NCBI GenBank assembly: GCA_030248215.1 | Contig: JASANG010000097.1 | Location: forward strand, 182,140 to 246,139 | DNA length: 64,000 nt | Source of the DNA: Enoplolaimus lenunculus | Taxonomy: Eukaryota > Nematoda > Enoplea > Enoplida > Thoracostomopsidae | Reading direction: 5' to 3' | Shown here: positions 3,001-64,000 of the stretch, one piece after another | How the letters are laid out: every line of letters starts with the position of its first letter | Position numbering within the stretch: the stretch's first letter is position 1 | The notes under the pieces: model-generated | The model's input: only the letters and a program-made list of their open reading frames with translations | The model's database searches: none | Told to the model about the DNA's origin: nothing | Made by a program: the position numbers and the translations under genes

Positions 3001-5718
3001 AAATCCCCGAGGAGTCACAACTGGTGTTCAATGGGCACAGGTGAGTGAAAGGTTTTAGAGTTAAATTGTTTGTGCCTCAGTTTTATCCGTTTGAGTATTT
3101 TTTCTTGTTCTTGGGGATTTGGTCCGATGCCAGGTACATACTTATGTATCTAGAAATATATAGAAGTACAAATTTTAACTTCATGTGCCCTGCACCGATT
3201 CATAATTTATAGGGCCTCGATCTTAAAGTAAGTTATACTTTAAAAATCTTCAGATTGTAAATTGCTCGTGTGTGCGAAAGTAGGGTCAGTTGTTGAGGGG
3301 GTTCAAAGATGTGGAACATGGATAGGAGGGATCCTATACCGCTTAATAGAGAGACCCATGCTGCATATGTATGTTAGCGTTGTTAAAAAGCGCGTGTGTA
3401 TTTTCTGCGCTGAATCTTGTAACTGAAATATTAAGGCAACATTAATTTTGATCATAACCGTATATGTACCTGATTAGATATCAACATTTCTTAGTTTTTG
3501 TCAACTTGCGAGAGACTTGTATTCACAGTTTTGTTTTGCTTGTCAATGCGTTTTTCTAAATATTTTTATTTGTTACAGTATTTTTATTTGTTACAGCACC
3601 TGTGGATCAATTGAGTGTATTAGTATGATCAACGAAGAACATTTTGTTTCGGGTTCGGATGACGGGTGAGTTAATACTCAGGCGGTGCTACGGTAATAAC
3701 GTCCTGAGATTTTCTAGTTCTTTAGGGTCTCACTATTCTTGTGGTGCAGTGCCATCCGGACTGGCCCGCATCGTCGGTATAATTTTTTATTTTTACAGTG
3801 CTGTCTGACATCAAAAAGTAAGTGTAGCGGCACCCATAGCGTTTTTAAGTGGTTGCGAACACGAGTGAACGTTGAAATTAGAAATTTAACGTGTTTTGCC
3901 TTGTTTTATAGCCTCTTTTAGCTCGCAATCGGTGCTATACGTAGTTGAGAACACGGGTCATATTTCTATGTTTGGCACCCGCTCTTGTTCTAATGGACAT
4001 TGTGCGTTCACAGTTTAAGGGCTTTATGCGTGTGGTCAATGATGCGAAAAAAGCCTGCTTGCATTGTGTATCGAGCTCATCAGAACAGCTCCAAGGAACC
4101 TTGTTGGATTACGTCAGTTGCTGCGTTGAAAAATAGTGATCTCGTAGTTTCAGGTATTGAATTTGTATGTAGTGTTGTTCAGGTTGGGAATACATAGAAT
4201 TTTTAGAAAAATAATACGTCGCCGTTCTGAGCTAAAGGCGTATCTCATTGAGCGAAGCGAAACTCCGAGCGAAGCTCGGAGTTTCGCGAAGCGTTTTATG
4301 TTTTGTACTTGGGGGTCGAAAGGTGGATGTCCGTCCGTCTGCCTGTCCGTCTGTCCGTCCGAAAAGAATCTCAGGAACGGCTAAAGCGATTTTGATAAAC
4401 TTTTCTGTTTGAAAGCCAATTATCCTGGAGTGTTAACATCGCATTGGGGTTTTAAAATGTTGAGCAGTTTAATAGCTACAGGCTAATTGCATAATTAATT
4501 AAGCCTAAATTAGTACTTTCCACAATATTTCACTAATTATTACAGTTAGAAGCAATCCAATTTTAGCATTAAAGGGGTTTTGGGTGCGAGAAATCTGCGT
4601 AGACTGTTTACAAACCTCCAAAACCGATGATTGAGCAGTTAGCTAATAGATAATTTGCATGTTAGTATAGGTTATATAAGCCTAAATTAGGACTTTTTGT
4701 AATATTTCACTAATTATTAAGGTTAAAAGCAATATAATTTCAGGGCTAAAGGGTGTTTAGGTGCGAGGAATTTGAATAAATTGTTTACAAACATCCAAAA
4801 CCGATAATTGAATAGTTAGCTAATAGTTAATTTGCATATTAGCTTAATTGACAAGACAAAATTAGGACTTTTTAAATTATTCCAAAAATTATAGGGTGGC
4901 TGAAGGGTTTTTGGGTGCGAGGAATCTGAGGAAATTGCTTACAAACCTCCAAACCGATAAATGAATAGTTAGCTAATAACTAATTTGCGTATTACCTTAA
5001 TTGCTTACGTGTGTTCGAGCTTCGCTCAATGAATGTAGTCCCACTACGACTGGTATATAAGTGTAATTTGTATATTTTAATATGGTCCTTCGGGCACTGG
5101 GATTGTCTTCAATCTGAGTTTAGGGCGTAAGTTTTATCTTGATAAACGAGTGAGATAGGGCTGTATTTGCAAAGAGCGTAGATCAGCATTATTCAGGCAA
5201 TAGACGTAACAGAGTGTAGCTTCATTTTGTGACGGAATGACTTGCCTCAAGTGGCAAAATGGTTGTTTAAATTTCAGGTGCGTCTGACGGCTTCTTGAGA
5301 CTTTGGAAATGTGCAGAAACGTACAAAAGTCTGGAAGAAATTGGCCGTATTCCAACGGTAAGAACCAATACAATCTTGGGCATCATTTTTGTTTTTATTG
5401 TTGTTGCTTAATATGGACGCTTTTTAGATTTTTTTCAACTGGTACATTTCTGTAGACAACAGTGCCATACACTGAGCATAATATGAAGTTAAAAGTGTTT
5501 TACATCGCAATTTAACTATTTTATTGTTTATACATTCATTGTTTCAGATCGGTTTTATTACTGGATTGGTATTTGGTCAAAAAACGCTAATGCTTGCAGC
5601 GTCTGTGAGTCAAGAACATCGACTTGGACGCTGGTGGAGAAATAAAAGTGCTAAAAATCATGTACTTTTGATAAAATTTGATGAACAGAACTCTGCCGAC
5701 GATGGTTCTAAGGGCTGA
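40..5718 (+). CDS. RRP9: U3 snoRNP WD40 protein RRP9 (U3-55K), 5' partial, 10 exons
   Basis: RRP9 binds the box B/C motif of U3 snoRNA in the nucleolus and supports early cleavage of pre-rRNA. Exons read in one frame are 40-149, 1051-1112, 1508-1549, 1766-1892, 2275-2501, 2805-3040, 3597-3665, 4014-4153, 5278-5357 and 5548-5718; the phases agree at every junction and give 420 residues before the TGA. The family-specific stretch ETAHEKRHRIAKQYIKMLE opens exon 1, and WD40 blades follow, for example YVETLFGHEDTV, WKIPEESQLVF, INEEHFVSGSDDG and SVAALKNSDLVVSG. The C-terminus has the diagnostic QEHRLGRWWR. An in-frame TAA just upstream of position 40 shows that this exon starts at a splice acceptor, so the basic N-terminus lies outside the window. 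The match to animal RRP9 runs end to end, so identity is secure; the exact exon edges are by eye. Confidence 0.95.
3561..3596 (+). repeat. 18-bp tandem duplication of a splice acceptor (RRP9 exon 7)
   Basis: The sequence TATTTTTATTTGTTACAG occurs twice back to back (3561-3578 and 3579-3596), directly before RRP9 exon 7. Each copy has a pyrimidine tract and a CAG acceptor. Use of the upstream copy would add 18 nt in frame, with no stop, inserting six residues (SIFICY) into a WD40 blade. Confidence 0.9.
4243..5035. mobile_element. non-autonomous element with internal tandem repeats in an RRP9 intron
   Basis: The ends are inverted: CATTGAGCGAAGC near 4244 and its complement near 5020-5032. Inside are a near-perfect 10-bp-stem palindrome (about 4260-4284, AACTCCGAGC / GCTCGGAGTT), a CCGTC/TGTC-rich stretch (about 4325-4362), and about three diverged tandem units of roughly 170-190 bp (about 4450-5010). 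Each unit carries a motif like GGGTGCGAGGAATCTG followed by TTACAAACCTCCAAAACCGA. It lies wholly inside an intron. The family is not recognised. Confidence 0.6.
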
Positions 5719-7157
5719 CATACGTTTGAACGTATATGCAATTGAGTGTATTCAGTTTCCTCACAGGAGAATTGTATTCGTTTAAACATATGCGTTCGAT
5801 CTTATTTAATTTTGCAATGGGATAGGAGTTACTTGTCTTTTCGGTTATTCTTCCCCCAGCCGGTGTTTTCCAAAAAATTGACGGATTTTGAAATTTTTTG
5901 CATATGTAAATTAATAATTTATACGCAAGTCTAATCCAAACCTTAAAGCCTAAGCCTCTCTGGACCTAAACCCCTGTCACTGTGAGCAGCTCCTATAATG
6001 TGACATAGATAGTTTTTGTGAACAGGGGAGTTTTAGTTCAGAGTTCGCAGTTTTTCATGAAATCTATTCATATCTTCCGTTATTTGCACAAGTGGCTTAT
6101 ATTGGCTGCTTGCCCCACGGAAGCAGATAATAGCCATTGTGTAACTGATAGTTTTATATTATTCATTAAAAACTGAAGCTTCTTCATTTCGAGCGACAGA
6201 TTCAAATTTGGACCGCGGTAAAGGTCATTATTGATAGAAACCGAATGATTCTCTTTAGCAAGTGTCAATTCACGATTTTACTGATTTAGACCTTGGAGGT
6301 TGCCGTAATATTTGTTCCTAGCAATTATATTTGTTTCAGGTTCTGACTTTTAGTAGACGCAAAATTCATATTATGACCCTCTATATCAGCGATTTTCGGG
6401 AAATATGTGTATAAATTGCAACATTTAGAATACACATGCAGTACTAAGAAAGAAAAAATGATAAAAATTAAATGGATTTCATTAGTATAGTGTGCAAGCC
6501 TTGACAATCGCCAAAAATAAAACATCGAAGGTAGATTTCACTTCCATGAATTATGAAAATCTAAAATGTACAGCAGATAACGTGAATATGTATCTCCAAC
6601 TTAGGTTATTTCACCAAGAATTGCGTTAGCCTCGTAAAATAACGCTGGTTTCGTTTGTCCCCGTGTCCTATGAACCAATGAAACAAAAAGGTTTTCAAAT
6701 CACGCTTCTTGCAAGCATATTTTCTTAAAAACGAGATAATGCTTGAAACATTTTCGTACCCGGCATACCTGAACAGATCATTCTAAAAATAAAAATACTG
6801 ATACACAGACACAGAACTTCAAATTTAAATCATTCATTATATCTTAAAGATATTAAACTGAAAATTTTAAGCTTGAAACCTGAAAAATGAAGCTTATAGC
6901 ATTGGCAAACAGTGCTACACATTTCAACTTTTGTCCATGGTGAAATGAGCTGAAAATTATTTATTATATGGTATTTATTTTTCGTTAGAATACCAAAATT
7001 CATAGAAAACCAGTTAGCGAAGTCATAATAAATGTTTCTAGGTTAGAAATGTCTATTACCTACTTCGCTAACTGCTTTTTCTATCATCCTAATTTTTTTG
7101 CTTCAATCATTCTTTTCTATATAAATTCTGATTTTATACTTTAAATTATTGTGAAGT
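5719..7157. other. intergenic, no gene seen
   Basis: AT-rich sequence downstream of RRP9. The only clear structure is an imperfect inverted repeat at about 7006-7083 (CAGTTAGCGAAGT paired with ACTTCGCTAACTG), which may be a small degenerate MITE. No ORF here looks like a protein. Confidence 0.6.
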
Positions 7158-22427: not shown

Positions 22428-22545
22428 TGGCCAGTTAAGCCGACTTTAATCTCTTAAACAACTGGCTACTTTTGCTGGATGTATCTGATAATACACTTCA
22501 AAATTTAACTCTCCATGTTGTGCATACTTGCATTAACAGACATAT

Positions 22546-22617
22546 ATGCGTAGCTCAATGGTCAAAGCAACAGTCCGGTAATCCGTACGTCATGGGTTCA
22601 AATCCCACCGTATCCGC
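22546..22617 (+). tRNA. tRNA-like sequence (probably decayed tRNA or SINE head)
   Basis: An A-box-like TAGCTCAATGG and a B-box-like GGGTTCAAATCCC sit at tRNA spacing. The T arm pairs (TGGG/CCCA) and the D arm pairs for three bases. The acceptor and anticodon stems each have mismatches, and the base before the putative GGT anticodon is C, not T. A functional tRNA is therefore unlikely. Confidence 0.4.
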
Positions 22618-36577: not shown

Positions 36578-37132
36578 TACATTTGAGAATACGGGCTTTA
36601 GTCTTAGATTTTCAACCCAAATGTATTTTAGCTTAACAGTAAAATCTGCTCTGTTCCTGGGAATGCGATTAGAAACGCTAAGTAAAGCATTAAATCAAAA
36701 CCTGTCACCGGCCAGCCATGTATGTATGTATATATTTGAACATGAATCTTTTAAACATTTGACGCACTAAAGATTATAGAAATTGTCAATTCTGAACTAA
36801 ATGTCACGTGTCATCCTTTACATTATACAAACATTGTTTATTGCACACTTTTGCCAAATTGCACTAAGGCTTAGGCTCGGGTATAACTTAGAATAAAAGC
36901 CTCTGCGGGAACATTTGCTTTAACCTTTAGTCAGAAATGTAGGGGTAAGGGCTGACAGATGGTTTGGCAACTTTGCGAAAAAACGCCTTTTATTGCTGGG
37001 CAATGGAGGTTAGAACTTGTGCTGACTAACAGGGCTTTAAAAGTTTTTATTAGCTAAACCAGAAAAGTACTCTAGTCACGCAAATTCTATCGAATTATGT
37101 TTTAAGCAATATATAAGCCTACCAGGGTACAA

Positions 37133-37226
37133 CCGCAGGTCTGCCTCCGGCTCCGGCGGCGGCAGAAAATCGGCCTCCGGTTCTGGAAGAATTATCCGGT
37201 ATTTATCACCTCCGGTTGCACTCTGA
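37133..37226 (-). mobile_element. MITE family C, deletion copy
   Basis: CAGGGTACAACCGCAGGT to CCTCCGGTTGCACTCTG, with CTCCGGCTCCGGCGGCGGCA between. Only the terminal regions remain. Confidence 0.7.
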
Positions 37227-37704
37227 ATCCTACGTATAAATTCAGCCCTAAATTAGGAACGTTAGCGTAACCTTAAGTAATGTACAGAAAACTACGACTA
37301 TTGCGCGTTTTAGAAGAGATATATTTTAGATCTTAGTTAATACAAAACAAGCAGTATTTTGTTCAATCGTGTCAAGTAAGAGCGTTTTTCGCGTTTCAAC
37401 TGTCCGCTACCTTTAAATTATTGGCGGATATACGGAATAATGATGAGTCAGGTTGACTCTGTCCGAAATAGGCTAGATTCCTTTTAAAATGCCAGGTGGT
37501 CCAGAGTACATTTGCCAAATTTTTTGGTACATTTCAAAATAAAGATTCCGTTGGACGCTCCTGTCTTGAGTATAATTTTGGATTATAAGTAAAGAAAATA
37601 CCTGATTGACAAGCAAAGCTAGAAATTCAAAGCATCCCGTACTAAAATGTACAGAAGACATCAAATAATATTTTATTACAAGCTTATATTAAATAAAGCA
37701 AACA

Positions 37705-37730
37705 TTTATATAAATATATATATAAATATT
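37705..37730 (+). promoter_or_regulatory. TATA-like region upstream of the channel gene
   Basis: An AT-only stretch contains TATATAAATAT and TATATATAAATA about 25-45 bp before the ATG at 37754. It could be a core promoter TATA box, but the surrounding DNA is AT-rich and no transcript start is known. Confidence 0.25.
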
Positions 37731-37753
37731 TCGTACTAAATCACGTTTACACC

Positions 37754-39128
37754 ATGAGAAATTTTCCAAAATCAATCTCTAACGAATTTTCAAGCAATGC
37801 TAAAAGCCGTCCGTCCGCTCATAATTCAAACGTCCACGCCGACACTAATCATACTACAATTATTCGGCCGTCAAGTTTAACCGATCATCAACAATCAAGT
37901 GGTTCAAAGCTTCCGCCCGCATATGCGAGACCTGCCAACCCCGAATTTCCCACAGGATCCGATATCGAACCAGAGACAACACCGTTTGAACTATTTCAAA
38001 TAGCCACGCTCGCTCATCATTCACATAACTTTTCGAGTTTACCGTCTACTGAAGAACCAATGAACGGTGGGTATTTATCGCCAGCCAGCAGTGATCGGCA
38101 ACTTCTTGAACGAATCAAATCGTTAGAACGGTACATTGAAACGTTGGGTAACTTTGATAGTCGAATGAAACAAACTGAAAAAGCGCTGGCAACCCTACTC
38201 GAACCAGAAAGTTGTGCGCAACCTAAACTTAACCAATACGATTTAAATCAAACAAATAGTCTTCAAGTAAAAAGAAATCAGACAATCGGACTGAAAGTCA
38301 ACAATTGTCAACAACTTTCAGCACATATCAACCATATCGTTCCATCTGTATCCACAAATGGCCTCGTTAGCTTAAATACAAGCCGAAAAGGCCAACTTGG
38401 AGACAACCGCCACACCTGCCACAATCCGCTGATCAAATCAGCACTCCACGTCGGCACTGGATCGGTCGTGAAATCATTTTCAGCATCAGCAAACGACGTA
38501 GGCAACACAACAACAGCCCTGTCAAGCTTAGATTTAGCACTAATGCGAACAAAAGATCAAACGCCGTCGCCTTGTTTTATGCGGAACCCCAGTGACGACG
38601 CGCAATCACCAATCTTATCCCTGAAGACTCCACAACCATTATTAACAAACCGTGGACTACGAGCCTCGAGTATTTGTAACGAAACTATGGATCCAAATCC
38701 CAAGTTTCACCAGTTGTCTGCATCAAATAACATTTCTGAACCACAATTGCCGAATGCCAACAGTTGCCAAATCCCAGGACGCCGCATTACGCACAGCGAA
38801 CAAGACTTGGCAACGACGCTGAATAACAACAGCATCAATGGTAGGAAACTGTTTTGTTCCCAATGTTACGCCCAATCGAATCCCAAAATGCGCTGCGTAA
38901 ACTGTGCTAAACTCAATCGCCAAGCGAATAACGAAGTTTATTGTGATCCAAGTTGTTCACATCGTGCAACTGTTTGCAATTCTCGTCAATTGCACGCTAC
39001 ACAGGCACGGTTTGCTGCAAATTGCTCAACCAATCACGAAATGAACGGCACATGCAGCAGTCATAATAATCATGACGCTGCCGGTGCACGTATGCATCTC
39101 ATTGAGATACCAAAAATTCGATTATCAC
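37754..39128 (+). CDS. first exon: novel cytosolic N-terminal region of the channel
   Basis: It encodes 458 codons with no similarity I recognise. The open frame runs on to 39379, but ATTATCAC followed by GTAAGTATGG at 39129 is a strong donor, and the next exon (39238) continues in phase. Notable parts are LPPAY (53-57), a charged helical stretch RQLLERIKSLERYIETLG starting near residue 114, and a Cys pattern CX2C-X9-CX2C (368, 371, 381, 384) followed by CX3C (397, 401). The rest is rich in Ser, Asn and Thr, as in disordered tails. Confidence 0.7.
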
Positions 39129-42100
39129 GTAAGTATGGCTTTCGAACCCACGGGCGTGTGCATCAAATTACATTTGAGGGGCACCGAATAGATTTGGGGG
39201 ACCCAGATAACTGTAATTTAATATTGTTTACTTTTAGATCGAGTCTATTTGGGAGACACCTGCCGAATTTGGGGGAAGGGCGCAGCCCCCACCACAACGC
39301 CATCAGTAGGGACGCTGTCCAAAAATACAATCGCGTACCTGGGGGGAATTACCAGTCAGCCCACTTTCGAAATATTTGAACAGGGTATGCTTTTTTATTT
39401 CATGACAAAAGAAGCTAATTTTATAAGGGTTTTGTAGATCGTAACCTCCACATTTGTAATAATTCTTTACTACGACCATTCGAACATAAATATTTTTATA
39501 TTTTATTTGTAAAAAGTTCCGATTCTGTCTCTAAGCTGAATAGTTGTGCGTGAAATAGGGTAGAAGAAATTTAGATTACGCAAATAGGTGTCTTTTGCGG
39601 GGTGATGTGAACACTGAATGCAAAAAGCTTCAGTGTGCAGTGCGATGAAGGCAAAAAAGCTACAGCGTCAATCACACTGCCCCCTCAAAAGTCACCTGGT
39701 TTACGCATGATATTGTGGAATTCACATTACTTATTTTCACTTTTAAATAAACTTTAAATTGTTGTAAGAACATAAATTTTGAAATGAAGCGTCTCAAGTC
39801 CACACAATAAGCTTGATCCATATTCTCAACTCTGTGTAATCGCCAGTTACAGCATAAACGACTGCCGACAGCTGCGGGTGTGAAATTTTGCACAGTAACA
39901 GAGTGCATTTAATCCAAGAAATATACTAAATTTTGAAGCGGATCAATGTTAAGTTCAAAACTTATAAGACCTATCCACAGCTGGCAATCCGTGCTATATT
40001 ACATCCAGTGTCGGATCCAGAAATTTTTAAAAGTTGGCCAGGCGGAGATATAACAGTGCAACAAACCCGTCACTGAACCAAACGATAAACCAAGCGCGAT
40101 TTTAGTGCTAAACCTTAATTCAAATCACTGCAAAACCTTGGTTTTTGCCTCTGTTACATGGACCCAGCAGAGGTTGGCCCCCCGTTGGATCTGCCGGCGG
40201 TTTCATTTCAGAATCCGGCCGTTTGTTTGAAACATGGATTCTGTTCCATGTCTGCAGTGGAAAATTCATAAACTTATAATTTAACCGTTTTAAAGGAAAA
40301 CAACTACGAAAACATCCGGTGCGTCTTGAAAAAGAGCTCGAATTCAGCGGTTTGCACGGAATCCCAATTTTACTCCATTCCGGCTCTCGAGTTCGTCGAA
40401 TTATGTGGACCTGTTTGCTGATTACTTTGCTACTTCTTGCATTGTCACACACGTAAGTTTGATTAAGTCAATAGTTGCTGTACATGGTATATAAGTACGC
40501 TGAGTTACTCACAGTATATAGTACTCTATATGAATTATGATTAAAAGAAATTGGCAGGGATGTCATGGGTAAGAATTTTCTGCAGCATTTCACCCCATCC
40601 CGTGGATAGTTTCGTGCGGATCATCATGGGATCTTCGCAATCCCGCCAACTTCCCAACGTGGTGGATGTCATGTAAGTTGTGATACACATGTCCTGACTC
40701 CTGAGTATTTGTAATTAAATAAGTACACCCTAAGGCTTTATGACAAATGATTAATGATGCTTTTGTCTTACTGGCGTAGTAATAAATAGAAGCACAACAG
40801 GGTGCAACCGGAGGTGAAAAATACCAGAGCCGGAGCCGAAGACGCAGGTCAACTATACTTGCCGGAGCCGGAACCGGAGCCAGAGCCAAAGGTGAGGCGA
40901 AATTAGGTAGTAAAAATGACGGTTAATTTAGCCAATATCTGCAATATGTTGTTAAGTTGTTTGGTTTTACGCTAATTTTCTGCGAAGATCAGAAATTCTT
41001 TCCTGAAAATTGTGACAAAAGTAAAAAAGAAACGCGCTAAACAGATAAAGTTTGCAAAATTATGCAAAATGTTACTACCGATATTGCCGGAGTCTCCGGC
41101 AAAAATTTTGCAGGAGCCGAAGCCGTAGGCCGATTTTCTGCCGGAGCCGGAGGCAGACTTCCGGTTGTACCCTGAAGCACAATATATTACCAGTTTCTGA
41201 CAACATCGATTAATCTGGTATTAGCAGCTACAAAACATAAGTAAAATGTCGACCTAAAATCATAATCGAACTTAAAAGTCATGTTTGTGCAACCCAGGGA
41301 ATTTTTTCCATATTTTATATTTACAGCGGTGCTACAATCTACCGTGCAACCCGAAGCGCAACCCAATTCAAAATTTCCTACGAAACAACACAAACGCTAC
41401 CGTTTCCTGACATTACCATATGCAGCAGTTTTGGCGTATTTATGAACATAACGAAACTAACCAATAACTGGCTTACACGACTTAAATCTCCACAATTACT
41501 TCAATCGTGGGAATCTGATTTAGAAGAATGGATTGGACTCATTCAAGCAATGCCAGCAATGTCGGCATACATGCAAGGAGACAGCCTACTAGCGGCCAGA
41601 CAACTGGTCCCTGAACGCAAACTGGCAAAAAATCTTAAACCAGATCGTGGTTTAGATCGTCTAAGGCGTCGATATAATGGAGACTTGGCATCTGCAATGC
41701 GGCATTTAATGGATGTTTACTTACTCCAGTGTAATACAATCTTTGGCAAATGCTACAGTGACGAAAGCGAAGTAAACTGTTGTGATATATTTGAACCGAT
41801 ATACAACGCATTCTTGGGTCCATGCTATGTCGGCAAGATCAATCGACTCCCACCGTCGGATCATGGGAATATTATGCGAAATATGAAACATATGACATGG
41901 ATTGAACTCAATGACTGGGCAGATCCGCAACCGGAGAAAACAACTCTACACAGCAAATACGTTAGCGGGTTGAATTTTCAACTTGGATCCGAACAATGGG
42001 TCACTACGCTCAACGGAATCATGCCTCAAAACCGATATCAAATCGGAATTGACGTTCGAAAAATCAAAGATATGGACAATCCGCGAGAATGCTTAAATTC

Positions 42101-42686
42101 TGCTCGAGGCCGCTCAAACCTGTTTCAAAACTACACCCAGCATCGATGCTTACCCGAACGGCTGTTGCTCCGATTTCAAGAGACTCAGTTAGATTGTGTA
42201 TGGCCTTTGTTGAAGCTACTGAATCCGCATTTAGACTACGGAAGCAAACAACAATGCACTGCGCCTACTAATCATACATTTGACGATTTAGGCAAATTTG
42301 CTGAAGATGCAATAACATTGGAAGATCGCCAAGCATGTCTTATCGAATGTAATCGGTGGGAATATTCTGTTGCCGACTGGGAAAAAACAAGCGATTACAC
42401 CGAAGACAACATTGTTCTGTTTATGTTTTTCGCCGGTCCGTCGTATACAATAATTGAAGAAGTACAAACGCTCACATGGATGGACTATTTGAGTATGGTC
42501 GGCGGACTGTGGGGCCTTTGGCTTGGATCATCAATTATAACATTTATTAATATTATTGAAGCGTCCATTTACGTTGGATTTCGACGGTTTAAACGTCGAT
42601 GGCAACGCGCTACACAATCGACTAAAACGTCAACGAGTGCAAAGCTTAGCGATGTACGAAAACCGCTTGTGATGCTACGGTGTTGA
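37754..42686 (+). CDS. DEG/ENaC sodium channel subunit with very long N-terminus, 4 exons
   Basis: Trimeric cation channel subunit of the degenerin/epithelial Na channel/ASIC family, acting at the plasma membrane. The four exons are 37754-39128, 39238-39384, 40296-40452 and 41327-42686. The phases match at all three junctions (1, 1, 2) and give 1012 residues. Known signatures are FSGLHGIP before the first membrane segment (about residues 524-557, ending ITLLLLALSH), then FPDITIC, then a Cys-containing ectodomain. The second membrane segment GGLWGLWLGSSII (about residue 960) has the G-x-S selectivity filter. Residues 1-520 are low in hydrophobicity and carry an LPPAY motif (53-57), a predicted coiled coil (about 112-147) and a Cys cluster (368-401). 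The ATG context, CACCATGA, is good. The channel exons are certain; joining the N-terminal exon is inference from phase and position. Confidence 0.85.
39655..40060. repeat. dispersed repeat inside the channel gene's second intron
   Basis: CCCCTCAAAAGTCACCTGG and CATGATATTGTGGAATTC (about 39680-39722) recur near 8790 and 30390. The end segment with CTGGCAATCCGTGCTA (about 39985) resembles the ends of the element at 36394-36577. Confidence 0.5.
40798..41174 (+). mobile_element. MITE family C, full length (about 377 bp)
   Basis: It has the inverted ends CAGGGTGCAACCGGAGGT and CTTCCGGTTGTACCCTG. Both subterminal regions consist of GCCGGAGCCGGA-type words, and the centre is unique AT-rich sequence. 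It lies in the intron between the first membrane segment and the ectodomain exon. Confidence 0.85.
41327..42686 (+). CDS. last exon: channel ectodomain, second membrane segment and short tail
   Basis: It opens in phase with residue 560 and reads through FPDITICSSFGVF, the ectodomain and YTIIEEVQTLTWMDYLSMVGG into the pore helix with GSS. It ends in a short basic cytosolic tail (FRRFKRRW, stop TGA at 42684-42686). The ectodomain contains the family's C-terminal pattern, a cysteine-bearing ACLIECNRWEY segment. No PY motif is seen in this C-terminal tail. Confidence 0.9.
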
Positions 42687-42905
42687 GTCGTCCCCCGTAA
42701 TCAAGAGGCGGGGCAAGAAGATTCAGACCTTCAAAAAAATTGCTTCAACCTTGTTTGTAAGGAATCTGAAATCTTTGTATGGCTTACTTAAAATATTTTA
42801 GCGCCCCTAAAACCAAGGTGAGCTGGCTACTAGCGTGTATTTAACTGTAGCCAGGGATTGAAAAGAACTAGAGAGTTTCAAACTAACACTTCGTAATGTG
42901 TATAG
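42687..42905. other. downstream flank of the channel gene
   Basis: About 220 bp of unique sequence; no certain polyadenylation signal is seen before the next repeat. Confidence 0.4.
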
Positions 42906-43279
42906 CAGGGTGCCACCGGAGGTGAAAAATAGAGTAGCTGGAGGTTAACAAAACTTGTCGGAGCCGGTGGATAGGCGAAATTAGGTAGTTAAAATGTTAT
43001 TTAATTTGTTAATTAACCGCATATTCGTTTCGGTTTCCGGCAAAAATCTGTGCCGTTTCTGTTACAGAAATACGAAAAATTCTGCTATTTTTATGTTTAA
43101 AATTAGTTATAAATCGTGTGTAGGTATATATCTCAGTTTTTCATTACAGATATGCTGCAATTGTTCTATGTCAAATAATAATAAAGAAATTGATTTCCGT
43201 TTCTGTTGTTTCTATCACAATCTGTATTCGTTATTATTACTATCCATTTACACCCCGCAAACCTCCGGTTGTACCCTGG
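42906..43279. mobile_element. composite element: family C ends around a family D interior
   Basis: The ends (CAGGGTGCCACCGGAGGT and CTCCGGTTGTACCCTG) are family C, but about 43016-43245 matches the interior of the family D copies at 43560-43925 and 46283-46560 (for example GTTTCCGGCAAAAATC and CAAATAATAATAAAGAAATT-type sequence). Confidence 0.65.
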
Positions 43280-46720: not shown

Positions 46721-47412
46721 TTACCCTCCATCCACCACTTTCGACCCAGGCATGACAAGTTGCGCTTCGTCCCGATCGCCTTCCAACTGAAATAATTTGA
46801 TCATTCGATCAAGTGTTTCCCTATCAGCATCGTCGAACACTGTCAACGCATTTACCAGCGCATGAAGTATTTGCACATCTTCTATTTTTTTAGTCAAATC
46901 ACCATTTACAATTCGATTATTAGCAATGTAATTTCGACTAGTATACTCAAATTCAACAATCACATCACGGCATAAATAAATAAATTTTCGTAACGAGGCG
47001 ACATAGCTAGCGCGTTCGCTTGTAGAAATCACAAACGGATGCCCATTTTTGAGTTGTCTAGATGCCTGCGTCACCAAATCTGCGTAGAAAAATTCCGCTA
47101 AATCGTCCACTTCAGCGTTTCCAAGTTTACTCAATTGTAACCCAACAAGACGTGCCGATAAAAAATGATTAAGTTTCGGGCGCAAAGTGCCATAGAACGA
47201 GTATTCCGCTGGCAGGCCAAGGCCGGTACGGGCCGCAATTCCTTCGAGAACACTCAGTCTTTCGTTGACCGCGTTAAAACTACGACTACCAGCATCACTT
47301 GTATCTGTTGACAACTTATTATTGCTGTTGCTTTCTTCATTATCATCGTCTTCAAAAACAGATTCAATTTCGACCTCATAATTTGATTCCGCTTCGCTTT
47401 GCGTTGGACAAC
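46721..47412 (-). CDS. EDEM3: EDEM3 last exon: acidic linker and unrecognised C-terminal region
   Basis: It encodes about 230 residues, joined in phase 1 to the PA-domain exon (donor GTAAGA at 50206). It begins with acidic sequence ([16 protein letters not shown]) and continues as a largely helical, well-ordered-looking domain ([35 protein letters not shown]). It ends ...VVDGG and TAA. Vertebrate EDEM3 has a disordered tail ending in KDEL here, so this region differs. It could instead be a separate gene's exon, but the splice phase and acidic start support the join. Confidence 0.65.
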
Positions 47413-50400
47413 CTAAATAAGCGTATGAAAAGTTTACTGTCCAATATTAGACACAAACCTTAATCTCATAGCTTGACTAATAGCCAAAACGCCTTAAATA
47501 AAGAAACCTATCTACTTATTAGCGCAAATCTAAGTAAATAGTAGTATGTAAATTAATAAAAGAATCTATTTTAACAAAAATTTAATTTAAAATCACAGTT
47601 CTGTACATATTATTACAGCAACAACATACCAGTTTCAGCACTTTCGATTAAGTCTGTGACCGAAAAAAATTTGATTCTCATAAGCTTCCCATTGACATAT
47701 TTTAAGGTTATGGCGTAAACAAACTTAGGCGTAAGTACATAAGCTTTTTCATAGCCCAAAACTCAACTCAATAGTGCCTATATAATGTTTCTTCCATTTT
47801 TGCCCAACATAATGCATAGCGGCTCTCTAAGATACTAATGCTTCTCTGCAGAAACAAAAAACGGACCCATTTTGTTTTATCCTCAGTTTTTCCAATAAAA
47901 GTCGACCAAAACGTTTGTTCGCTTCGCTCGCATCTCTCGCATGTATTAAGAACTAATCGTGTTTTTATAGTAAATAAAAATTATAAGTTTTTCGAAAACA
48001 CGAGCGAGCCTAATTTCATGTTTTGCTAAACAAGACTCAAAATTTTTCTATTTACAGAATGCTTGCATGCTTATTTGAACATTAGTATTAAAAAACACTG
48101 CAAAGTTTTACTCCTTTGACGCGTTGCCGACTAGTTCTGCTAAAAACAAAACGTTATTTTTTGCCTTATCCGACCGTCAACAAAACTGATTAAAAACTTA
48201 TTCGCTGACAAATATATTAAAAATGTAAAGTTTTAGCAAAACCGTACAAACTTTAATTGTTTCAAGTGTACAGTTCATAGAGCACACTTTGCAAATTATA
48301 TAAATATTGGCCGAGACACACGGTATGTTTAGGTCTTGTGTGAAACCATAGGTTTTCAAAAAATTGCCTACCAAACTTTTTTGACAAAAGAGAATATTTT
48401 GACACAGTAAAATGTATATAAACTGCAAATGAAAAACCCAACCCTGCAGTAACATGATCATTAAAGTGCAAATGATTATTGATGCCCGCATACTATTGCC
48501 GGAAGACGTGACCAAGGTTGTAGTATACATATTAGAAATTTTAGAAACATAACATTGTGCAGCTACGAAATCTTACATGGTATAATTCAATAAATAGTGG
48601 TCAGCAGCTCCCATTAAGCATATCTACAATTTCTTGAGGAATTTCTTTCCACATTTACGATTAACGCATATTCCTGGGCATAAGGCAACGTTTCCCAAAC
48701 CTACGGTTAAGTGTGTGTGGAAAAATGTAAAAGAGCCGATCTCTGTACATTTGTAAAAAATATTTACTTTGTTGACTATCCACAGGTGTTGTAACTGACT
48801 GTTGGTTTCTATCCAAATTAGCCGTCTTGAGGGTTTCCATTCGTAGGCGGGTTAATTTGTCGTTGGACAGCATATCACAGCGTAACAAATTATAGCTTCC
48901 GATCAACAATTCATCAAATTTATACGACACTGAAAAACCAACAACCACCGTATAGTTGCGGATGGGCAAGCAGATTTAAAACCATCAATGATTTTTCCAC
49001 CAGAATACTCACAGATTGTTGTGCTATAGGGGGAATTAAGCTGGTATATTACCCCGATAATTAATAACAAATTTTTAGTGACGCACGGCATTGGTTATAC
49101 CGGCACTTTTCAGTGTCGGCATTGGCACTGCAAATATTGCCGATTCTTTGCCGATACTTTTTGCATTTACAGTGATCTGGAATACTATCAATTTCACTTG
49201 TTGCTGTATATCAGTGCGTCGGATCAAAAAACTGGTTGTCTCTTGCGTTTGTGATTGAAAAAATTGTCATAATATTATTATAACAGTTTATGTTTGTTAG
49301 GGTTTAAGTTTTCGCGTTTATAACAATGTAATGTATTAATCTTAATGGCTCCTTAACCATTACGTTTCAAATTGGAACCGGCATCGGTATCGACATCGGC
49401 ATATCACTATTCCTTGTTACTAGTGTGGTTCTCAAAGTACTTAAATTTATCATTTCAAACAAGACTTGCAATCAAATATTGCGGTCTTGCCCATAAATAA
49501 TAGAATAATAATTATGTTAGGCCTTCCAGCAATAAATATCTGACAATACAGAATACCTAAGCCAGGTGTCGACGACTCTTAGCCCGACATCGGGTTGAAG
49601 CCTACTAGGAACGCCTAACTCAAGTTTTGATGCTGCTACTGTAAACAGACGGAAAATATTCGCAAAGACAGGAACGCATATAAAACAGAGTGTTAACATA
49701 ACATCATTTTCAACCCAGCCACAAAATTGTACCTATATTGGTATCAACAAAAGTAAAATTACGAAATTGCCACTTACTGACCCCACTTTACATACCTGAA
49801 TTTAACACGTTAACCCCAACGTAATGTGCGGAACACACGCCCAAAACAACGAAAGGGCAAAGCGGTGCGCTATCCCATATGGCACACCTCACGACGTGGA
49901 ACACCTTTTCAATTGCCCAAGCAACCAGACAGGGCTCAATACACTGGATCTGTGGATGCAGCCAACACAATTAGCAGAATTTCTCGGTCTCGAAAAGGAA
50001 CGGAGCGATCAATAGCGGAAGGGAATGGCTACCACAACAACACCAGCTTTATCAAGTTTCCTTGACCATAAATTTTTTCAACAGCATTAAACGAATTGTT
50101 CGAAAAAATTTTCTTCCCCTCTTGATAACTTCTTGCAATTCCACTAGCAATAATTATGAAATTAGCTATTTTCCAACTTTAGCAAGAATCATACCTGGAT
50201 TCTTACAATCCATTCCAAAGTACGCAATCAGTTGTCTTCTATTTCCATTTCCATCACCAACTGTTCCATGCAGACTTTTACGTTTCTGAGCAGTTGCTGC
50301 TATTGCACGTCGTAGAACGTCGCTTTCTTTTCGGAACAAAAATACAGAGGGAATATCTACGGTTATACTATCGTCACCAGCCATCGCAAATCCAGGCGAT

Positions 50401-56400: not shown

Positions 56401-59400
56401 GGCTGGTACCAATTCTCAAGAACGTCGTATGAACAAACTGGCGACGATTTTTTATGCAAACACTAAACTACAAGGAATCAATTATTGATGAACACTGCTT
56501 GGGTTAAAAAAATTAAGAAAACGACAATTAAAACTAAATTTCTTGTTAAAGTTATTCCATAAATTATATAAGAGCGGAACTTACCGATCTTCTAAACTGA
56601 GAATTCTGACATCTCGTACAGCAGCAAAACCACAATCTACCCGTGCGTATTTATTCATCGTTTCTTGAAAATCGGCACCGACGTGGAGATAATAAGGATC
56701 ACGTGTTGCCTTAATTAAAAATAACAAAAAATGTTTCTTTAAAACACGTCAACATTTGTGCGGATCGCACACTTCTTTGTTTTGTTTCACATGACGATCA
56801 AAATATTATAAAAACATGTTTATAACGTTGTATAAACTACACAAAATATACTGCTTTTATAAATGTAGAAAACTCAGAGATGTTTCCACCAAACGATGTG
56901 ACTAACCAGCATTTCCGTAATCGCAACAATAAGGGTGACGCTATACTTGTCTGGCGCCGAGCTCCGTGACCGTCCGGTGCCGTGCGTCACCGTCCAGTGC
57001 CGTGCGTCACCGTCCAGTGCCGTGCGTCACCGTCCGCCATTATACGGCATCATATGTGTGTAATTTACGTACGATACCATAGGGTGACGGACGGAGCCGT
57101 ACGACATTTACAGAACAACCCTTATTGATAACAACTCATTATAACATAACAATTAGACGTACTCGATAAAGTGAATACGTGCTTTCGATGAACTCTGGCC
57201 GTAAGTGATGTTCTTTCCAGTGAATTTTGAAGTTGTGAGTAAATGCCTGAAACAAAGCTTGGCATTGAATATATTTAAGAGAGCACAAGATATCAGTCAA
57301 AATCTCAGCGAAATAAATAGTACAATGAATATCTTTTTCTATGTTTCAACTTAAACCTTGAATTCGTTTCAAATAATCTAAAAAACAGTAAAACCATAAG
57401 AGTTGCACCAAAATGTTTTATTAAACATTGCCAGACGCCACCAAATAGATTTTGCCTATATTTTTGTTAGTAACGCACATTGGCGTCCGGCGTAGTAAAC
57501 TATAGCGCAACCCTAAGGGTGGTGCTACACATTTTAAATTTTTAATGTCATACGGTGCCGCCCGTCATGGCTAGCAATCGTACGAGAGTTGCTCGTGTAT
57601 AATACCGCAAGGTAGACAGCGCCGTGCCATAAGTAGCGGAGTGCATGCACCAGTTAACCGGCTAAATACCTCTGGCAAGAATCGATGCTTTTTCACCACG
57701 TGATTGAGCATTTCATAAAGCTCAATTGCTGGCTTCAAATCACCTTTTAACACCTGAAATACCAAGTTTTGTACAATTACTTAAAGAACAACTGTACTCA
57801 GAATAGCCAAAAGTGACAACATTGTCTAGTGTTCTCTTCCTTGCAAAACAAATAATACACAGCACAAAGATTCGACAGAGAAATAAGAAAAAGATAAAAA
57901 AACTTGGTTAGTATTAGTGTAAAATTAACCTGCAGTCCCGGCCAAAACGCAAGCAAGCTATCCATAAAACCTCGTGTTTTGACGTCTGGCCGATGCATTT
58001 GCACATCAACCATTAAGTGACCTTGATTAATATATCGCATTACGCCATCATAATGCTGAAACAATACTGCATTATTTACATCTTTTGTGAATTTCTTAAA
58101 ATATCCTAATATATACTTTAGCAATTTTGATATACGGCAGTCCCGTACTAAACTCACATTGCTATGGGGTTAAAATTGTAACTATAGACAAACAAGTGAT
58201 TCTGGCTACTTTTCAAACGAGGTTGAAACTTGTCCAGGAGTGGTCAAAATTTTCTAGGGGATTGTGCGCCCCCTGTCAACCTTCCCGTTAAGGGCCGGAA
58301 TCTGCGTTCAGATCACAAAGTTTAGATCACAATACAACGTTACCTTTTAGTTTTAACCCAGCACAACCTCCAAACCAACGCTACAGCGAAATATTAGGCA
58401 TGCACTTACCTTATTAAAACGATTCAAATAATCTACATCGCCAAGAAGTATATAGGCTTTGAAACAGTATTCGTAGTAGGAGTCAATACCAGCTCCAACA
58501 CCGCTTTCTGAAAGAATCTCAGGCATTCACAGCAATTTGCTCAAAAAACAAAAGTCTACAAATTAAGCATAATATACTATCTTCAAACCATCGAACTCTC
58601 TCGACACTGCAAAAAATTCACGTTTCGATTTCATTAAAAATTATTACCTATGCACTATATGACCTATCCTCGGTTTAATTGAAATGTCTTTGTTAGCATA
58701 AGTAGGAGAGTATCGAACTTGTGAGCTTTTAACAATACAGCTGGAAACAAGGGTAAGAACTTCCAAGCCTACACATCTATAAGCAAAAGTTCAACCACTA
58801 AGCCACGCAATCCGCCTCTCGAACTGCATATCCTGGAAAATATGTCTACACGTATACTCTACAAACAGCACCAAAACCAGGAATTATTATTTGAGACGCA
58901 AGAACGAGTCCAGAGGGGCAAGTAATAGTTTTTCTAATATAAAAAACATTTCCGGCCCGGGGGACAAAGTTGTCCGTGACGGCACATCCTCATCGTAGTT
59001 GTGGTTCAGCCTCTAAAATAGCACACCGTGCCTAGAAACATTACCTCGATGGGTCCAATCCCCAGTTTCAACATTCAATATGGACCCCATCAAATCACTT
59101 CCACGATGACGCTGCTTCCACAAAAAACTCATCGCTTTTTGAGCAACATTCTGAATTTTTAAAAATAAGATTTGTAAGACATCACGCAAACTTAAACTTG
59201 TACTTAAATTCATACCGTTCTCACGCCATTGTCAAAACATTTTGCAAAGCTTGAACAAATTTTAATATAAAACCATCAAAGTATCAACATTGCAGCATTA
59301 TTGTGCCTGACCGCTCCATATTTTGGTCAACGAAATCGTCATTATACGGCATAGCTGCACAGAAATTTAACCTTGATAGTCCAACTGAATGTTACTTTTG

Positions 59401-61082
59401 TGCGACTGCCAAAAAGCCTGTCACCGTTAAATGTATAAATTGCAAGCCACGCAAAGCAAACGTGTAACCAGATTTGTTTAGGGGTCAAAATATTTTTTGA
59501 AATTTTGGTTCTTAAATTTTTCAGAAGCTTTTTTAGTTTTTAATCGAAACACGGAATGTCGCTTCCAAAGTTTGCCAACAGTAACTCCTCATTTCCAAAA
59601 TCCTAGCCGTGCCCCTTTCACAAAGTCATTAGCCAACAGCAATTATATTATTTTCACTATCTTTCCACGAAACATCGCATCATACCTTATTCTACTGCAA
59701 GTCTCAAATACTAACTCACCTCAAAAACGGCGTTTCCTGTAAGTCGACTTAGCGCTGCAAACTCCATTATCACAGTACCAGCGCACGCGGTGCACGTCTC
59801 GTCTTGATATCTGAGTGAAGGAGTAATACCATGTCGTAGATTAACCTGAAACATTTCACATACCATACCAAGTAAAGAAACAGCAACAAATGAAAGTTTT
59901 AATCTCAACTACAATCATTTAAACTTTTTAAAGTATTTAGGTAATTTAAATTTGTTTTTAACAGTATATAACAAAATAATTGGCTAAAAATCAAGTATTA
60001 CGTCCATATTCCAATAATACGATCACTTCCAACAGCAACAAGCATGATAGTAAGCAGACGCTTACAGCATTCTCGCTCAGCAAGCTATTTAAAATACTAA
60101 ATTACCAATGGTCGAGGTAGGCCAGTACTCGTATTAAATGCAGGCAAGAGACGCGTCGCAACATCAATGGCCATTTTCAGGAGTTCATCAGAATACCATC
60201 GCATCAATTGCACTCGTTCTTTGATTTGTTTTGCCATAACGTGACCACCGATTAGACCACTAATAATAAATCAAACTCCGGCAATATAACCCGCTGTCAA
60301 CAATAAGAAGCGGTTCAATAAAAACAAGTTACAGCCCAACGTTTGCAACAAGCCATAGCCAAAATAAATATTAATATATAATATAAGTGCTGGGTTTCTG
60401 AAACTCTACTTAAGTACAACTGAGAACTTTAGTATGTGATAAGTAATTACTTAACCATTTTGTCGTTATTGAAAGCGTGTTTAAGGTAAATAAATGCATA
60501 AGTAGTTGACTCAATTTGATACATTACAAATTAACCGCTCAGACCTACAAACCTTGGTCTAATTGAAATTGTAGACTCATGGTGCCTCTTTAATATGAAA
60601 AACTATTTCTTTCTTGTTATGACAAAGGCTCACGTTTAGCGTTTATTTGTTACTGCTCGAAAATTTAAGTTTTTGCTTAAGGCGGCGAGTTAAGTAATTA
60701 AGTAATATTCCGGAAGCCCAGCCAAGGATAAAGATTTAATGCGATACTGCTGCTAAATTCTTAATGATTACCCAACACGACCGCCATCCAGTCATACGAA
60801 TTAATACTTCAATATAACATGTCAACGACTGCAATTTGCCAGGGTAATAGCTGTGTCCACTCTTGGCTTACGAATTCAAAATAAATTAAAAAAAGTGTAA
60901 ATCTGTTGACGATTTCTTGTACTTTCCAAAATTAAAACCGGATAAATTCACAATGAAACAAACACTGACCCGACTATCCTTATGTTGACTTCGAAAACAG
61001 AAACATCAAAATCTTGATCAAAATTAACATATTCGATGACACGTTGAACGGCAAATTCAAATGTATCAAATTGTTTCATAAT
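46721..61082 (-). CDS. EDEM3: EDEM3, ER degradation-enhancing mannosidase-like protein, 5' incomplete, 17 exons
   Basis: EDEM3 trims mannose from misfolded glycoproteins in the ER to send them to degradation. Exons in transcript order are 61082-60970, 60259-60106, 59845-59720, 59150-59045, 58507-58410, 58055-57930, 57753-57670, 57246-57163, 56709-56585, 55855-55705, 55139-54970, 52663-52528, 51978-51894, 51544-51435, 50944-50779, 50428-50207 and 47412-46721. All 16 junctions keep frame; the sum is 915 residues. GH47 landmarks in order are [103 protein letters not shown] and [11 protein letters not shown] domain follows ([20 protein letters not shown]). Missing are the signal peptide and the first catalytic segment, about 100 residues. 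The family's C-terminal KDEL is not present. Confidence 0.92.
47413..49502. other. EDEM3 intron, no gene seen
   Basis: AT-rich intron sequence. CGCTTCGCTCGCATCTCTCG near 47920 resembles the GAGCGAAGCGA words of other repeats here (4247, 20120, 25275). Open frames at 48198-48530 and 48661-48969 show no recognisable protein. Confidence 0.45.
49503..50040 (+). mobile_element. non-LTR retrotransposon remnant (3' end of an RT ORF) in an EDEM3 intron
   Basis: In the plus frame 49824-50015, [20 protein letters not shown] is followed by [20 protein letters not shown] and then [16 protein letters not shown]. This is the C-terminal Cys/His motif and tail ([10 protein letters not shown]...LW..P...A.FL) of LINE reverse-transcriptase ORFs of the Jockey/type-1 retrotransposon group. 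Upstream sequence to about 49503 is GC-richer than the intron but broken by stops. It is a dead 5'-truncated copy, opposite in direction to the host gene. Confidence 0.65.
50207..50944 (-). CDS. EDEM3: EDEM3 exons encoding the protease-associated (PA) domain
   Basis: Two exons (50944-50779 and 50428-50207) give the PA domain with the conserved [20 protein letters not shown] and [14 protein letters not shown] segments. PA domains in this family are thought to help bind clients or partners. The second exon ends YFGMD and T, before GTAAGA; reading on in the intron adds only a short tail before a stop. Confidence 0.85.
52808..54228. mobile_element. putative non-autonomous hAT-like element, about 1.4 kb
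   Basis: GTGATGGACATCGAATATTT at the left and ATATCTGGTGTCCGTCA at the right are inverted with mismatches. Both ends are followed inward by GGATATCCG words (52843-52910 and 54176-54215), a pattern common at hAT element ends. No transposase is seen. A decayed TTAGGC-type tract (about 53505-53580) lies inside. The whole element sits in an EDEM3 intron. Confidence 0.5.
54316..54930. mobile_element. long variant of MITE family C
   Basis: CAGGGTGCGGCCGGC and CCATCCGGTTGCACCAGG are family C-type inverted ends. The roughly 600-bp interior differs from other copies and contains CCGGATCCAGATATCCGG. It lies just downstream of the EDEM3 exon 54970-55139 in the same gene. Confidence 0.5.
56931..57123. 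mobile_element. MITE family E copy with internal 20-bp tandem repeats
   Basis: AAGGGTGACGCTATACTTGT at the left and the inverted GTACGACATTTACAGAACAA side at the right bound it; GTGACGGACGG pairs internally. The unit GCCGTGCGTCACCGTCCAGT is repeated about three times at 56978-57040, which the copy at 32055 lacks. Confidence 0.75.
57476..57655. mobile_element. one or two MITE family E fragments beside an EDEM3 exon
   Basis: GGCGTCCGGCGTAGTAAACT and TCATACGGTGCCGCCCGTCA, with CTCGTACG/TACCGCAAGGT between, are family E pieces in different states of decay. They begin within about 15 bp of the donor of EDEM3 exon 57670-57753 and create the false extension of that reading frame. Confidence 0.65.
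58676..58800 (-). other. tRNA-like A-box region
   Basis: On the minus strand, TGGCTTAGTGGTTGAAC (about 58783-58799) fits a tRNA A box/D arm, and AGTTCGATACTC about 85 bases on resembles a weak B box. No cloverleaf closes, so it is a SINE-like or decayed tRNA segment. Its mirrored start is at the right edge of the window. Confidence 0.3.
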
Positions 61083-61230
61083 CTGTAAAATTTATAAAAC
61101 GCATTACGCAAAACAAAAGCGTTGGTATTTATACACGTACGTAGTCAATAATCAACAATATCCACAACTCTTTGTTAAGTAGTACTTTATAAGGCCCTTC
61201 ACAGAAATATTGACTAATTTCGGTGGACCT
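58780..61230. repeat. left arm of a long inverted repeat
   Basis: It pairs with about 61545-64000. Paired coordinates sum to about 122,766-122,780 along the arm: 58780 with 64000, 59045 with 63734, 59845 with 62933, 60259 with 62507 and 61082 with 61690. Near-identity is seen at the outer end; many indels and substitutions appear toward the centre. This arm holds five intact EDEM3 exons partly or wholly and a family F MITE. Confidence 0.9.
60387..60725 (+). mobile_element. MITE family F copy (left arm)
   Basis: GTGCTGGGTTTCTGAAACTC to GGAAGCCCAGCC, inverted ends. The interior, with TAAGTAATTACTTAACCATT, matches the copy at 27199-27523. Confidence 0.7.
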
Positions 61231-61544
61231 TTAACCCACGACGGAGGGATTAACACTAGTCCGCTTCTCAGACTGCTACGCTAAACTCAAAGCATTAAAC
61301 ATACGTTAAAATAGTTACTGCTCTTCTTCACAAAACTAAATATTTCGCAAAAAATAATAGTGGATTTGTGAATGCATGTGATCATTTGTATGTGTTTCTT
61401 TTAAGCCTTCAACAATTTGCTTTGAAATTAATTTCGTTGGCAAATTTGATTGAACGCAGTATTTAATATAATCTTTAACTTCACAGCATTTCTTACTTCG
61501 ATTGCCTACATTTTATGCAGATATACCTTCTCTTTACTTAAGTC
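61231..61544. other. centre of the palindrome
   Basis: Sequence between the alignable parts of the arms. Traces of pairing persist on both sides (AAGGCCCTTCACAG near 61190 against GAAGGGCTTATG near 61598), then vanish. No ORF or exon is recognised; in particular none encodes the missing EDEM3 N-terminus. Confidence 0.6.
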
Positions 61545-61689
61545 AGTAATCCAGTTGCATTTATTCTGGCGTACGCTTGGTCACATTAGTTTTTTTGAAG
61601 GGCTTATGTCTTTGGTGTGATTTGTTGTTATTCTACGTCGTGTATAGATACAACCTTTTTGTTATTTTGCGCGTTTTCTGATTTTACAG

Positions 61690-63734
61690 ATTATGAAACA
61701 ATTTGATACATAAATTTGCCGTTTTCGACATGTCATCAAATATGTTAATTTTGATGGACTTTGATGTTTCTGTTTTCAAAGTATCCAACATAAGGATAGT
61801 CGGCTCATGTTTGTTTCATTGTGAATTTATCCGTTAATTTTGGAAAGTTAGAAAAATCGTCCAACAGATTTACACTTTTTAATTTATTTTGATTCGTAAG
61901 CCAAGAGTGGGCGCGGCTATTACCCTGGCAAAATACACATTTGACATGTTATATTGAAGTATTAATTCGTATGACTGGGCGGTCATATTATTAGGTAATC
62001 ATTAGATTTTAGCAGCAGTATCGCATTAAATCTTTATCCTTGGCTGGGCTTCGGAATATTACTTAATTACTTAACTCGCCGCTTGAAAAACTAAATATTT
62101 CTAGGCAGTAACAAATAAACGCTAAACGTTAGCCTTTGTCATAACAAGAAAGAAAATAGTTTTTCATATTAAAGAGGCACGATGAGTCTACAATTTCATC
62201 TAGACCAAGGTTTGTAGGTCTATAGCAGTTACATTTTGTAATGTATCAAATAGAGTCTCCAACTACCTTATGCTTTCTTACCTTAAACACCCTTTCAACA
62301 ACGACAAAATGGTTAAGTAATTACTTATCACATACTAAAGTTCTCAGTTGTACTTAAGTAGAGTTTAGAAACCCAGCACTTATATTATATATTAATATTT
62401 ATTTTGGCTATGGCTTGTTGGAAACGTTGGGCTGTAACTTGTTTTTATTGAACCGCTTCTTATTGTTGACAGCGGGTTATATTGCCGGAGTTTGATTTAT
62501 TATTAGTGGTCTAATCGGTGGTCACGTTATGGCAAAACGAAATCAAAGAACGAGTGCAATTGATGCGATGGTATTCTGATGAACTCCTGAAAATGGCCAT
62601 TGATGTTGCGACGCGTCTCTTGCCTTGCATTTAATGCGAGTATGGCCTACCTCGACCATTGGTAATTTAGTATTTTAAATAGCTTGCTGAGCGAGAATGC
62701 TGTAAGCGTCTGCTTTACTATCATGCTTGTTGCTGTTGGAAGTGATGGCGTATTATTGGAATATGAAAAGACGTAATACTTGATTTTTAGCCAATTATTT
62801 TGTTATATACTGTTAAAAACAAATTTAAATTACCTAAATACTTTAAAAAGTTTAAATGATTGTAGTTTGAGATTAAAACTTTCATTTGTTGCTGTTTCTT
62901 TTTTACTTGGTATGGTATGTGAAATGTTTCAGGTTAATCTACGACATGGTATTACTCCTTCACTCAGATATCAAGACGAGACGTGCACCGCGTGCGCTGG
63001 TACTGTGATAATGGAGTTTGCAGCGCTAAGTCGACTTACAGGAAACGCCGTTTTTGAGGTGAGTTAGTATTTGAGACTTGCAGTAGAATAAGGTATGATG
63101 CGATGTTTCGTGGAAAGATAGTGAAAATAATATAATTGCTGTTGGCTAATGACTTTGTGAAAGGGGCACGGCTAGGATTTTGGAAATGAGGAGTTACTGT
63201 TGGCAAACTTTGGAAGCGACATTCCCTGTTTCGATTAAAAACTAAAAAAGCTTCTGAAAAATTTAAGAACCAAAATTTCAAAAAAATATTTTGACCCCTA
63301 AACAAATCTGGTTACACGTTTGCTTTGCGTGGCTTGCAATTTATACATTTAACGGTGACAGGCTTTTTGGCAGTCGCACAAAAGTAACATTCAGTTGGAC
63401 TATCAAGGTTAAATTTCTGTGCAGCTATGCCGTATAATGACGATTTCGTTGACCAAAATATGGAGCGGTCAGGCACAATAATGCTGCAATGTTGATACTT
63501 TGATGGTTTTATATTAAAATTTGTTCAAGCTTTGCAAAATGTTTTGACAATGGCGTGAGAACGGTATGAATTTAAGTACAAGTTTAAGTTTGCGTGATGT
63601 CTTACAAATCTTATTTTTAAAAATTCAGAATGTTGCTCAAAAAGCGATGAGTTTTTTGTGGAAGCAGCGTCATCGTGGAAGTGATTTGATGGGGTCCATA
63701 TTGAATGTTGAAACTGGGGATTGGACCCATCGAG
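61690..63734 (+). pseudogene. EDEM3: inverted partial copy of EDEM3 (four exons), broken
   Basis: Counterparts of the first four EDEM3 exons found lie at 61690-61803, 62507-62661, 62933-63058 and 63629-63734. The first has TAA after IMKQFDT through a small deletion, and its donor GTCAGT has become CTCATG. The second has an extra G after GCAAAAC and further indels (CTTGCCTTGC, GTATGGCC) that break the frame. The third and fourth are intact in frame and keep their splice sites (GTGAGT, GTAATG). As read, the copy cannot make EDEM3. It is either a decayed duplicate or a low-quality mirrored assembly of the same gene. Confidence 0.8.
62040..62378 (-). mobile_element. MITE family F copy (mirror image in right arm)
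   Basis: TGGCTGGGCTTCGGAATATT to TTTAGAAACCCAGCACT is the mirrored copy of 60387-60725, with several small indels relative to it. Confidence 0.75.
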
Positions 63735-64000
63735 GTAATGTTTCTAGGCACGGTGTGCCATTTTTTAGAGGCTGAACCACAACTACGATGAGGATGTGCC
63801 GTCACGGACAACTTCTCCCCCGGGCCGGAAATGTTTTTTATATTAGAAAAACTATTACTTGCCCCTCTGGACTCGTTCTTGCGTCTCAAATAATAATTCC
63901 TGGTTTTGGTGCTGTTTGTAGAGTATACGTGTAGGCATATTTTCCAGGATATGCAGTTCGAGAGGCGGATTGCGTGGCTTAGTGGTTGAACTTTTGCTTA

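Follow-up and report, generated by a model that had tools for sequence, protein, structure and literature searches.

We analysed a stretch of 64,000 nucleotides from the nematode Enoplolaimus lenunculus (contig JASANG010000097.1, hereafter the window) and found a DEG/ENaC channel whose gene probably extends into a long coding exon upstream. In the reading that we favour, with a probability of roughly 0.65, a single gene of three, possibly four coding exons encodes a channel subunit with ∼480 tail residues before the HG motif, or ∼527 if the doubtful exon 2 is counted. Coordinates of the exons and of the features of the tail are collected in Table 1.

Table 1. Coding exons and tail features of the DEG/ENaC gene, in window coordinates
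Feature	Position	Strand	Evidence
Exon 1 (458 codons + 1 nt): start of the coding sequence, low-complexity cytosolic tail	37754..39128	+	Open length, codon score, period-3
PPAY motif, residues 54–57, possible WW-domain site	37913..37924	+	Pattern scan
Predicted helix, residues 111–147, coiled-coil compatible	38084..38194	+	AlphaFold2 10-residue blocks with pLDDT 63, 75, 59
Cysteine knuckle Cx2Cx9Cx2C, residues 368–384, zinc-ribbon-like	38855..38905	+	Pattern scan
Exon 2 of the earlier note: doubtful, symmetric (phase 1 to 1), skippable in frame	39238..39384	+	Without synonymous or period-3 signal
Exon 3: basic stretch, HG motif, most of TM1	40296..40452	+	HG motif aligned with solved ASIC and FaNaC1 structures
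Exon 4: extracellular domain, TM2 with GSS, 36-residue C-tail, stop	41327..42686	+	PF00858 to position 454; TM2 alignment to ASIC1/ASIC2

The DEG/ENaC channel at 40296–42686 is real. Translated together, exons 3 and 4 match PF00858 (Pfam ASC) at E 1.3e-37 over profile positions 5–454 of 455, with a score of 130.3 bits versus a curated cut-off of 23.6. Channels of this family provide a trimeric, amiloride-sensitive cation conductance, and a short intracellular N-terminus is typical of them but not defining. Exon 3 carries the HG motif, the di-arginine before TM1 and the TM1 Trp (LHGIP...RVRRIMWTC), which passages of PMC4212090 name as DEG/ENaC hallmarks. In TM2 the filter sequence GSS aligns to GAS of ASIC1 and ASIC2, the two solved chains that make up this comparison. 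The synonymous-codon score of exon 3 was matched by 0.15% of 4000 control stretches (open, non-coding), and the period-3 value was 2.0 for exons 3 and 4. An AlphaFold2 single-sequence model of exon 4 was uninformative (mean pLDDT 33). Homologues of DEG/ENaC channels have also been reported from some unicellular eukaryotes, according to passages of PMC10507113. The channel part itself is ordinary, and the subunit would stand apart from known DEG/ENaC channels by its tail alone.

Exon 1 is almost certainly coding, because of its open length and its frame-specific codon score. The frame at 37697–39379 is open over 560 codons, and within it a 458-codon exon runs from the ATG at 37754 to a GTAAGT donor at 39129, as had been proposed from a first reading of the sequence. 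Given how often stops occur elsewhere in the window, an open run of 458 codons would arise by chance at 1.5e-12 per start point. Using codon frequencies trained on exon 4 only, the exon scored 0.008 bits per codon in frame and −0.32 to −0.57 in the five alternative frames, and its period-3 value was 3.36 versus 0.37 in the 1.4 kb upstream; the middle of the exon (38060–38839) displays no period-3 signal (0.94). A score restricted to synonymous codons gave 8.0 bits in the true frame, a value reached by none of 2000 non-coding stretches as long as exon 1, but frame +1 yielded 18.2 bits, so that codon bias alone is too weak to fix the frame of this exon. In a sliding scan along the frame of exon 1 the coding score drops below zero around the donor and stays negative through the intron. 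A self-match search of the window (E 1e-3 or better, query 37000–43000) located repeats in the introns at 39648–39745 and 40795–41123; none of the matches listed overlaps exons 1 to 4, and a repeat origin of these exons was therefore rejected within the window.

The channel requires sequence from further upstream: an in-frame stop lies at 40277 and no ATG occurs in exon 3 ahead of TM1, so an upstream exon must be spliced on. We also weighed, and rejected, a spliced leader that would supply a start codon at 40296, since exon 3 needs two leading bases for its codon. Joined directly to exon 3, exon 1 matches it in phase, and the junction reads PKIRLSR-KQLRKHPVRLEK, an unbroken basic stretch. By chance such a phase match is a 1-in-3 event, which counts against the join. 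The window also holds, at 1700–5720 (+), a gene for RRP9, the U3 snoRNA-associated WD40 protein, with introns that measure 190–1124 nt as placed here; its best whole-length match is human U3 small nucleolar RNA-interacting protein 2 (E 3.8e-36). Splice sites were ranked by a generic splice-site score against all GTs or AGs in the window. The exon 1 donor falls in the top 0.7% of GTs, while the acceptor at 40296 is weak, as the earlier note had said: it scores −0.6 compared with 0.3 to 4.2 for five RRP9 introns, and 20% of the window's AGs score at least as high. Among exon starts at 40280–40345, for which three AGs were scored, it ranks first; a further AG before 40348, just outside this range, would keep the HG motif.

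In order to rank possible upstream partners of exon 3, we enumerated single ATG-started exons at 33.0–40.25 kb that end at a donor with a score of at least 2, and ordered the links by the sum of their splice scores and a codon score for which exon 4 and two RRP9 exons served as training set, keeping the best start per donor/acceptor pair. The best five of the 14 links listed all start inside exon 1. In the top link (33.3) exon 1 ends at 38840, so that the tail would lack the cysteine knuckle, and in the second (29.8) it ends at 39128; both start at an internal ATG at 38060, because the first 306 nt of exon 1 score negatively. With the channel and a coding exon 1 observed in matching phase, we infer that exon 1 is likely spliced to exon 3. 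A long N-terminal region without recognised homologues, as the earlier note proposed, remains the best reading in view of the coding exon 1, the absence of a Pfam or PDB family above cut-off and the best links, but its size is probably closer to 480 residues than was proposed.

This difference in size comes from the 147-nt middle exon. The matching phases described for the 147-nt and 157-nt exons leading into the HG motif and TM1 held up: all four exons joined give one uninterrupted open frame of 1012 residues, in which the HG histidine is residue 528 and the TM1 Met residue 544. Since the length of exon 2 is a multiple of three and its phase runs from 1 to 1, a direct splice from exon 1 to exon 3 would preserve the frame as well; with exon 2 skipped, one open frame of 963 residues results, in which the HG histidine is residue 479. 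An exact four-exon model, in which exon 2 is constitutive and the HG motif stands at residue 528, is a sub-case of the single gene and takes a minor share of its probability. It draws on the open frame and the matching phase, on an acceptor at 39238 in the top 5% of AGs and a donor at 39385 in the top 1.8% of GTs, and on a full-codon score for exon 2 that is the best of the three forward frames and, set against 3000 controls, exceeds their mean without reaching the 95th percentile. Against it, the synonymous score of exon 2 was equalled by 45% of 4000 open non-coding 48-codon stretches, its period-3 value was 0.8, and intron 1 would measure 109 nt, below the five RRP9 introns. The open frame and phase of the 147-nt exon thus stand, whereas its coding status is unsupported, and this exon, being without a clear coding signal, is the weakest part of the model rather than the 40296 acceptor, which had been singled out as the least certain junction. 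The cytosolic head of ∼540 residues first estimated is right for the four-exon model; because the middle exon is unsupported, a size of ∼480 rather than ∼540 residues is more likely.

The main competitor to a single gene is a pair of neighbouring genes, with exon 1 belonging to a separate protein that ends at ∼39.1–40.2 kb and the channel starting from a tiny first exon of its own, with an ordinary short tail. Among the later links listed there are exons outside exon 1, of 2 and 19 codons, that offer candidate starts for exon 3; exons this small are indistinguishable from chance, and two genes are therefore possible, at about one chance in four. The weak 40296 acceptor and the short tails of known relatives would also fit two genes, and with its donor unused exon 1 would run on to a natural stop at 39377–39379; however, the read-through to this stop has a negative coding score (about −0.26 to −0.28 bits per codon over 35 intron codons), and the sliding scan revealed no strong terminal coding exon between 39129 and 40296. 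An AATAAA at 39746 speaks for a gene end and against the join of exon 1 to the channel, but the hexamer occurs ∼1.3 times per kb here, which is chance level. A further possibility, a pseudogene or an assembly join from which no such protein is made, appears very improbable: the 98% inverted repeat at 58.8–64.0 kb raises some general doubt about the assembly, but the frames of the channel and of exon 1 are intact with a single stop at the end, and no self-match listed for the window lies over exons 1 to 4. A search for relatives in viral, bacterial and archaeal contigs found none; these collections are without animal genomes, and the result is no sign that relatives are absent from animals.

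Further features were observed elsewhere in the window. The large inverted repeat occupies 58780–64000, its arms being 98–100% alike over many segments, and reflects a recent inverted duplication or else an artefact of assembly. Inside one arm lies an exon that matches glycosyl hydrolase family 47 (62930–63058, +; E 3.1e-5, 23.6 bits versus a cut-off of 22.9), which we take to be EDEM-like. Several interspersed repeat families with many copies at 60–90% identity extend over 10453–46047, among them short GGCTTAGG-type runs and CCGGAGCCGGAGG-type elements. On the minus strand, 46724–47446 is open for 241 residues, including an acidic stretch, and is a possible coding exon; it yielded no Pfam match (E up to 1) and no NCBIfam match, and matched PDB only at E 0.17. 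Rfam reports a tRNA at 22544–22616 (+) with 34.2 bits that was not reported by ARAGORN.

Returning to the single gene, we characterized the sequence of its tail. No family above cut-off was found in Pfam, searched with the whole tail and in pieces, or among PDB structures. The tail is composed of 70% disorder-promoting and 4% aromatic residues, and an AlphaFold2 single-sequence model gave one helix of moderate confidence and was of low confidence outside it (mean pLDDT 35.8). The tail looks disordered, apart from this helix. In the best of seven heptad registers this helix places hydrophobic residues at 73% of core positions; its region hit DUF2891 alone in Pfam, with 12.6 bits below a cut-off of 25. 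The cysteine cluster at residues 368–430 contains the paired CxxC motifs CSQC at 368 and CVNC at 381. The pattern Cx2Cx7-12Cx2C arose in 0.25% of 20000 shuffles and seven cysteines within 46 residues in 1.1%. PPxY arose in 2.65% of 20000 shuffles, and the PPAY of the tail may be chance; these figures flatter the motifs, because the motifs were chosen after the sequence had been seen. Among curated zinc-finger families the cluster stayed below threshold (best zf_Tbcl_2, 11.7 bits versus a cut-off of 27, E 0.21), the cysteine-rich part had no NCBIfam match, and the knuckle gave a sub-threshold PDB match to a ribosomal L40 chain (E 0.17). A MYND-type finger was rejected for the cluster, with no Pfam match and a last ligand pair that is misspaced relative to the MYND pattern.

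The closest solved structures were ASIC2 (E 3.2e-8) and ASIC1 (E 4.7e-8), and ASIC1, ASIC2 and ASIC5 resemble the nematode protein in the channel core, the HG motif and the TM2 region. ASICs differ from it in the filter, GAS versus GSS, and in their intracellular tails, which comprise 30–100 residues in passages of PMC9949801, compared with ∼480 here if exon 1 is spliced on. The FMRFamide-gated channel FaNaC1 (8on7, E 1.4e-6) aligns at the HG motif and TM1, the HG region lying at chain residues 11–86, whereas the tail of the solved chain is short. ENaC has the HG motif in common, but its PY motif is C-terminal and the PPAY found here is in the N-terminal tail, possibly by chance. Nedd4-2 is reported to bind the ENaC PY motif (PMC2582799), and basic N-terminal clusters of ENaC are reported to bind PIP2 in passages of PMC8998630. 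The Hydra HyNaCs share the HG motif, the di-arginine before TM1 and the Trp in TM1, but HyNaC6-12 have short termini and total 454–507 residues compared with 963 or 1012 here (both from passages of PMC4212090). Among the matches listed from the PMC literature, no title or abstract describes a DEG/ENaC channel with an N-terminus of several hundred residues.

A function of the tail, called probably regulatory in the earlier note, can be proposed tentatively. Most likely the tail would be a flexible cytosolic arm, present three times per trimer if the channel is a homotrimer. Helix 111–147 and the cysteine knuckle could bind partners or each other, and the channel would in this way be anchored or clustered. 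With the direct join, the basic stretch beside the HG motif might meet membrane phosphoinositides and thereby bias the lower gate, which the HG motif lines; a similar effect has been proposed for ENaC. For ASIC1, passages of PMC10148893 identify the HG motif as the lower gate; for the N-termini of ENaC, those of PMC8998630 place PIP2 at the cationic clusters and propose an effect on the HG region. A more far-reaching reading, which we consider unlikely, makes the tail a dedicated N-terminal module of helix, zinc-knuckle-like cluster and disordered linkers that is joined directly to the HG gate via a basic stretch. It would act on gating or tethering from the cytosolic side, and an optional exon that leaves the frame unchanged would alter the linker to the gate. 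If the join of exon 1 to the channel is a gene-model error, the case is ordinary. If it is true, the cytosolic tail makes up about half of the protein, and the channel would be a natural case for studying how a gate is controlled, or a channel placed, from inside the cell.
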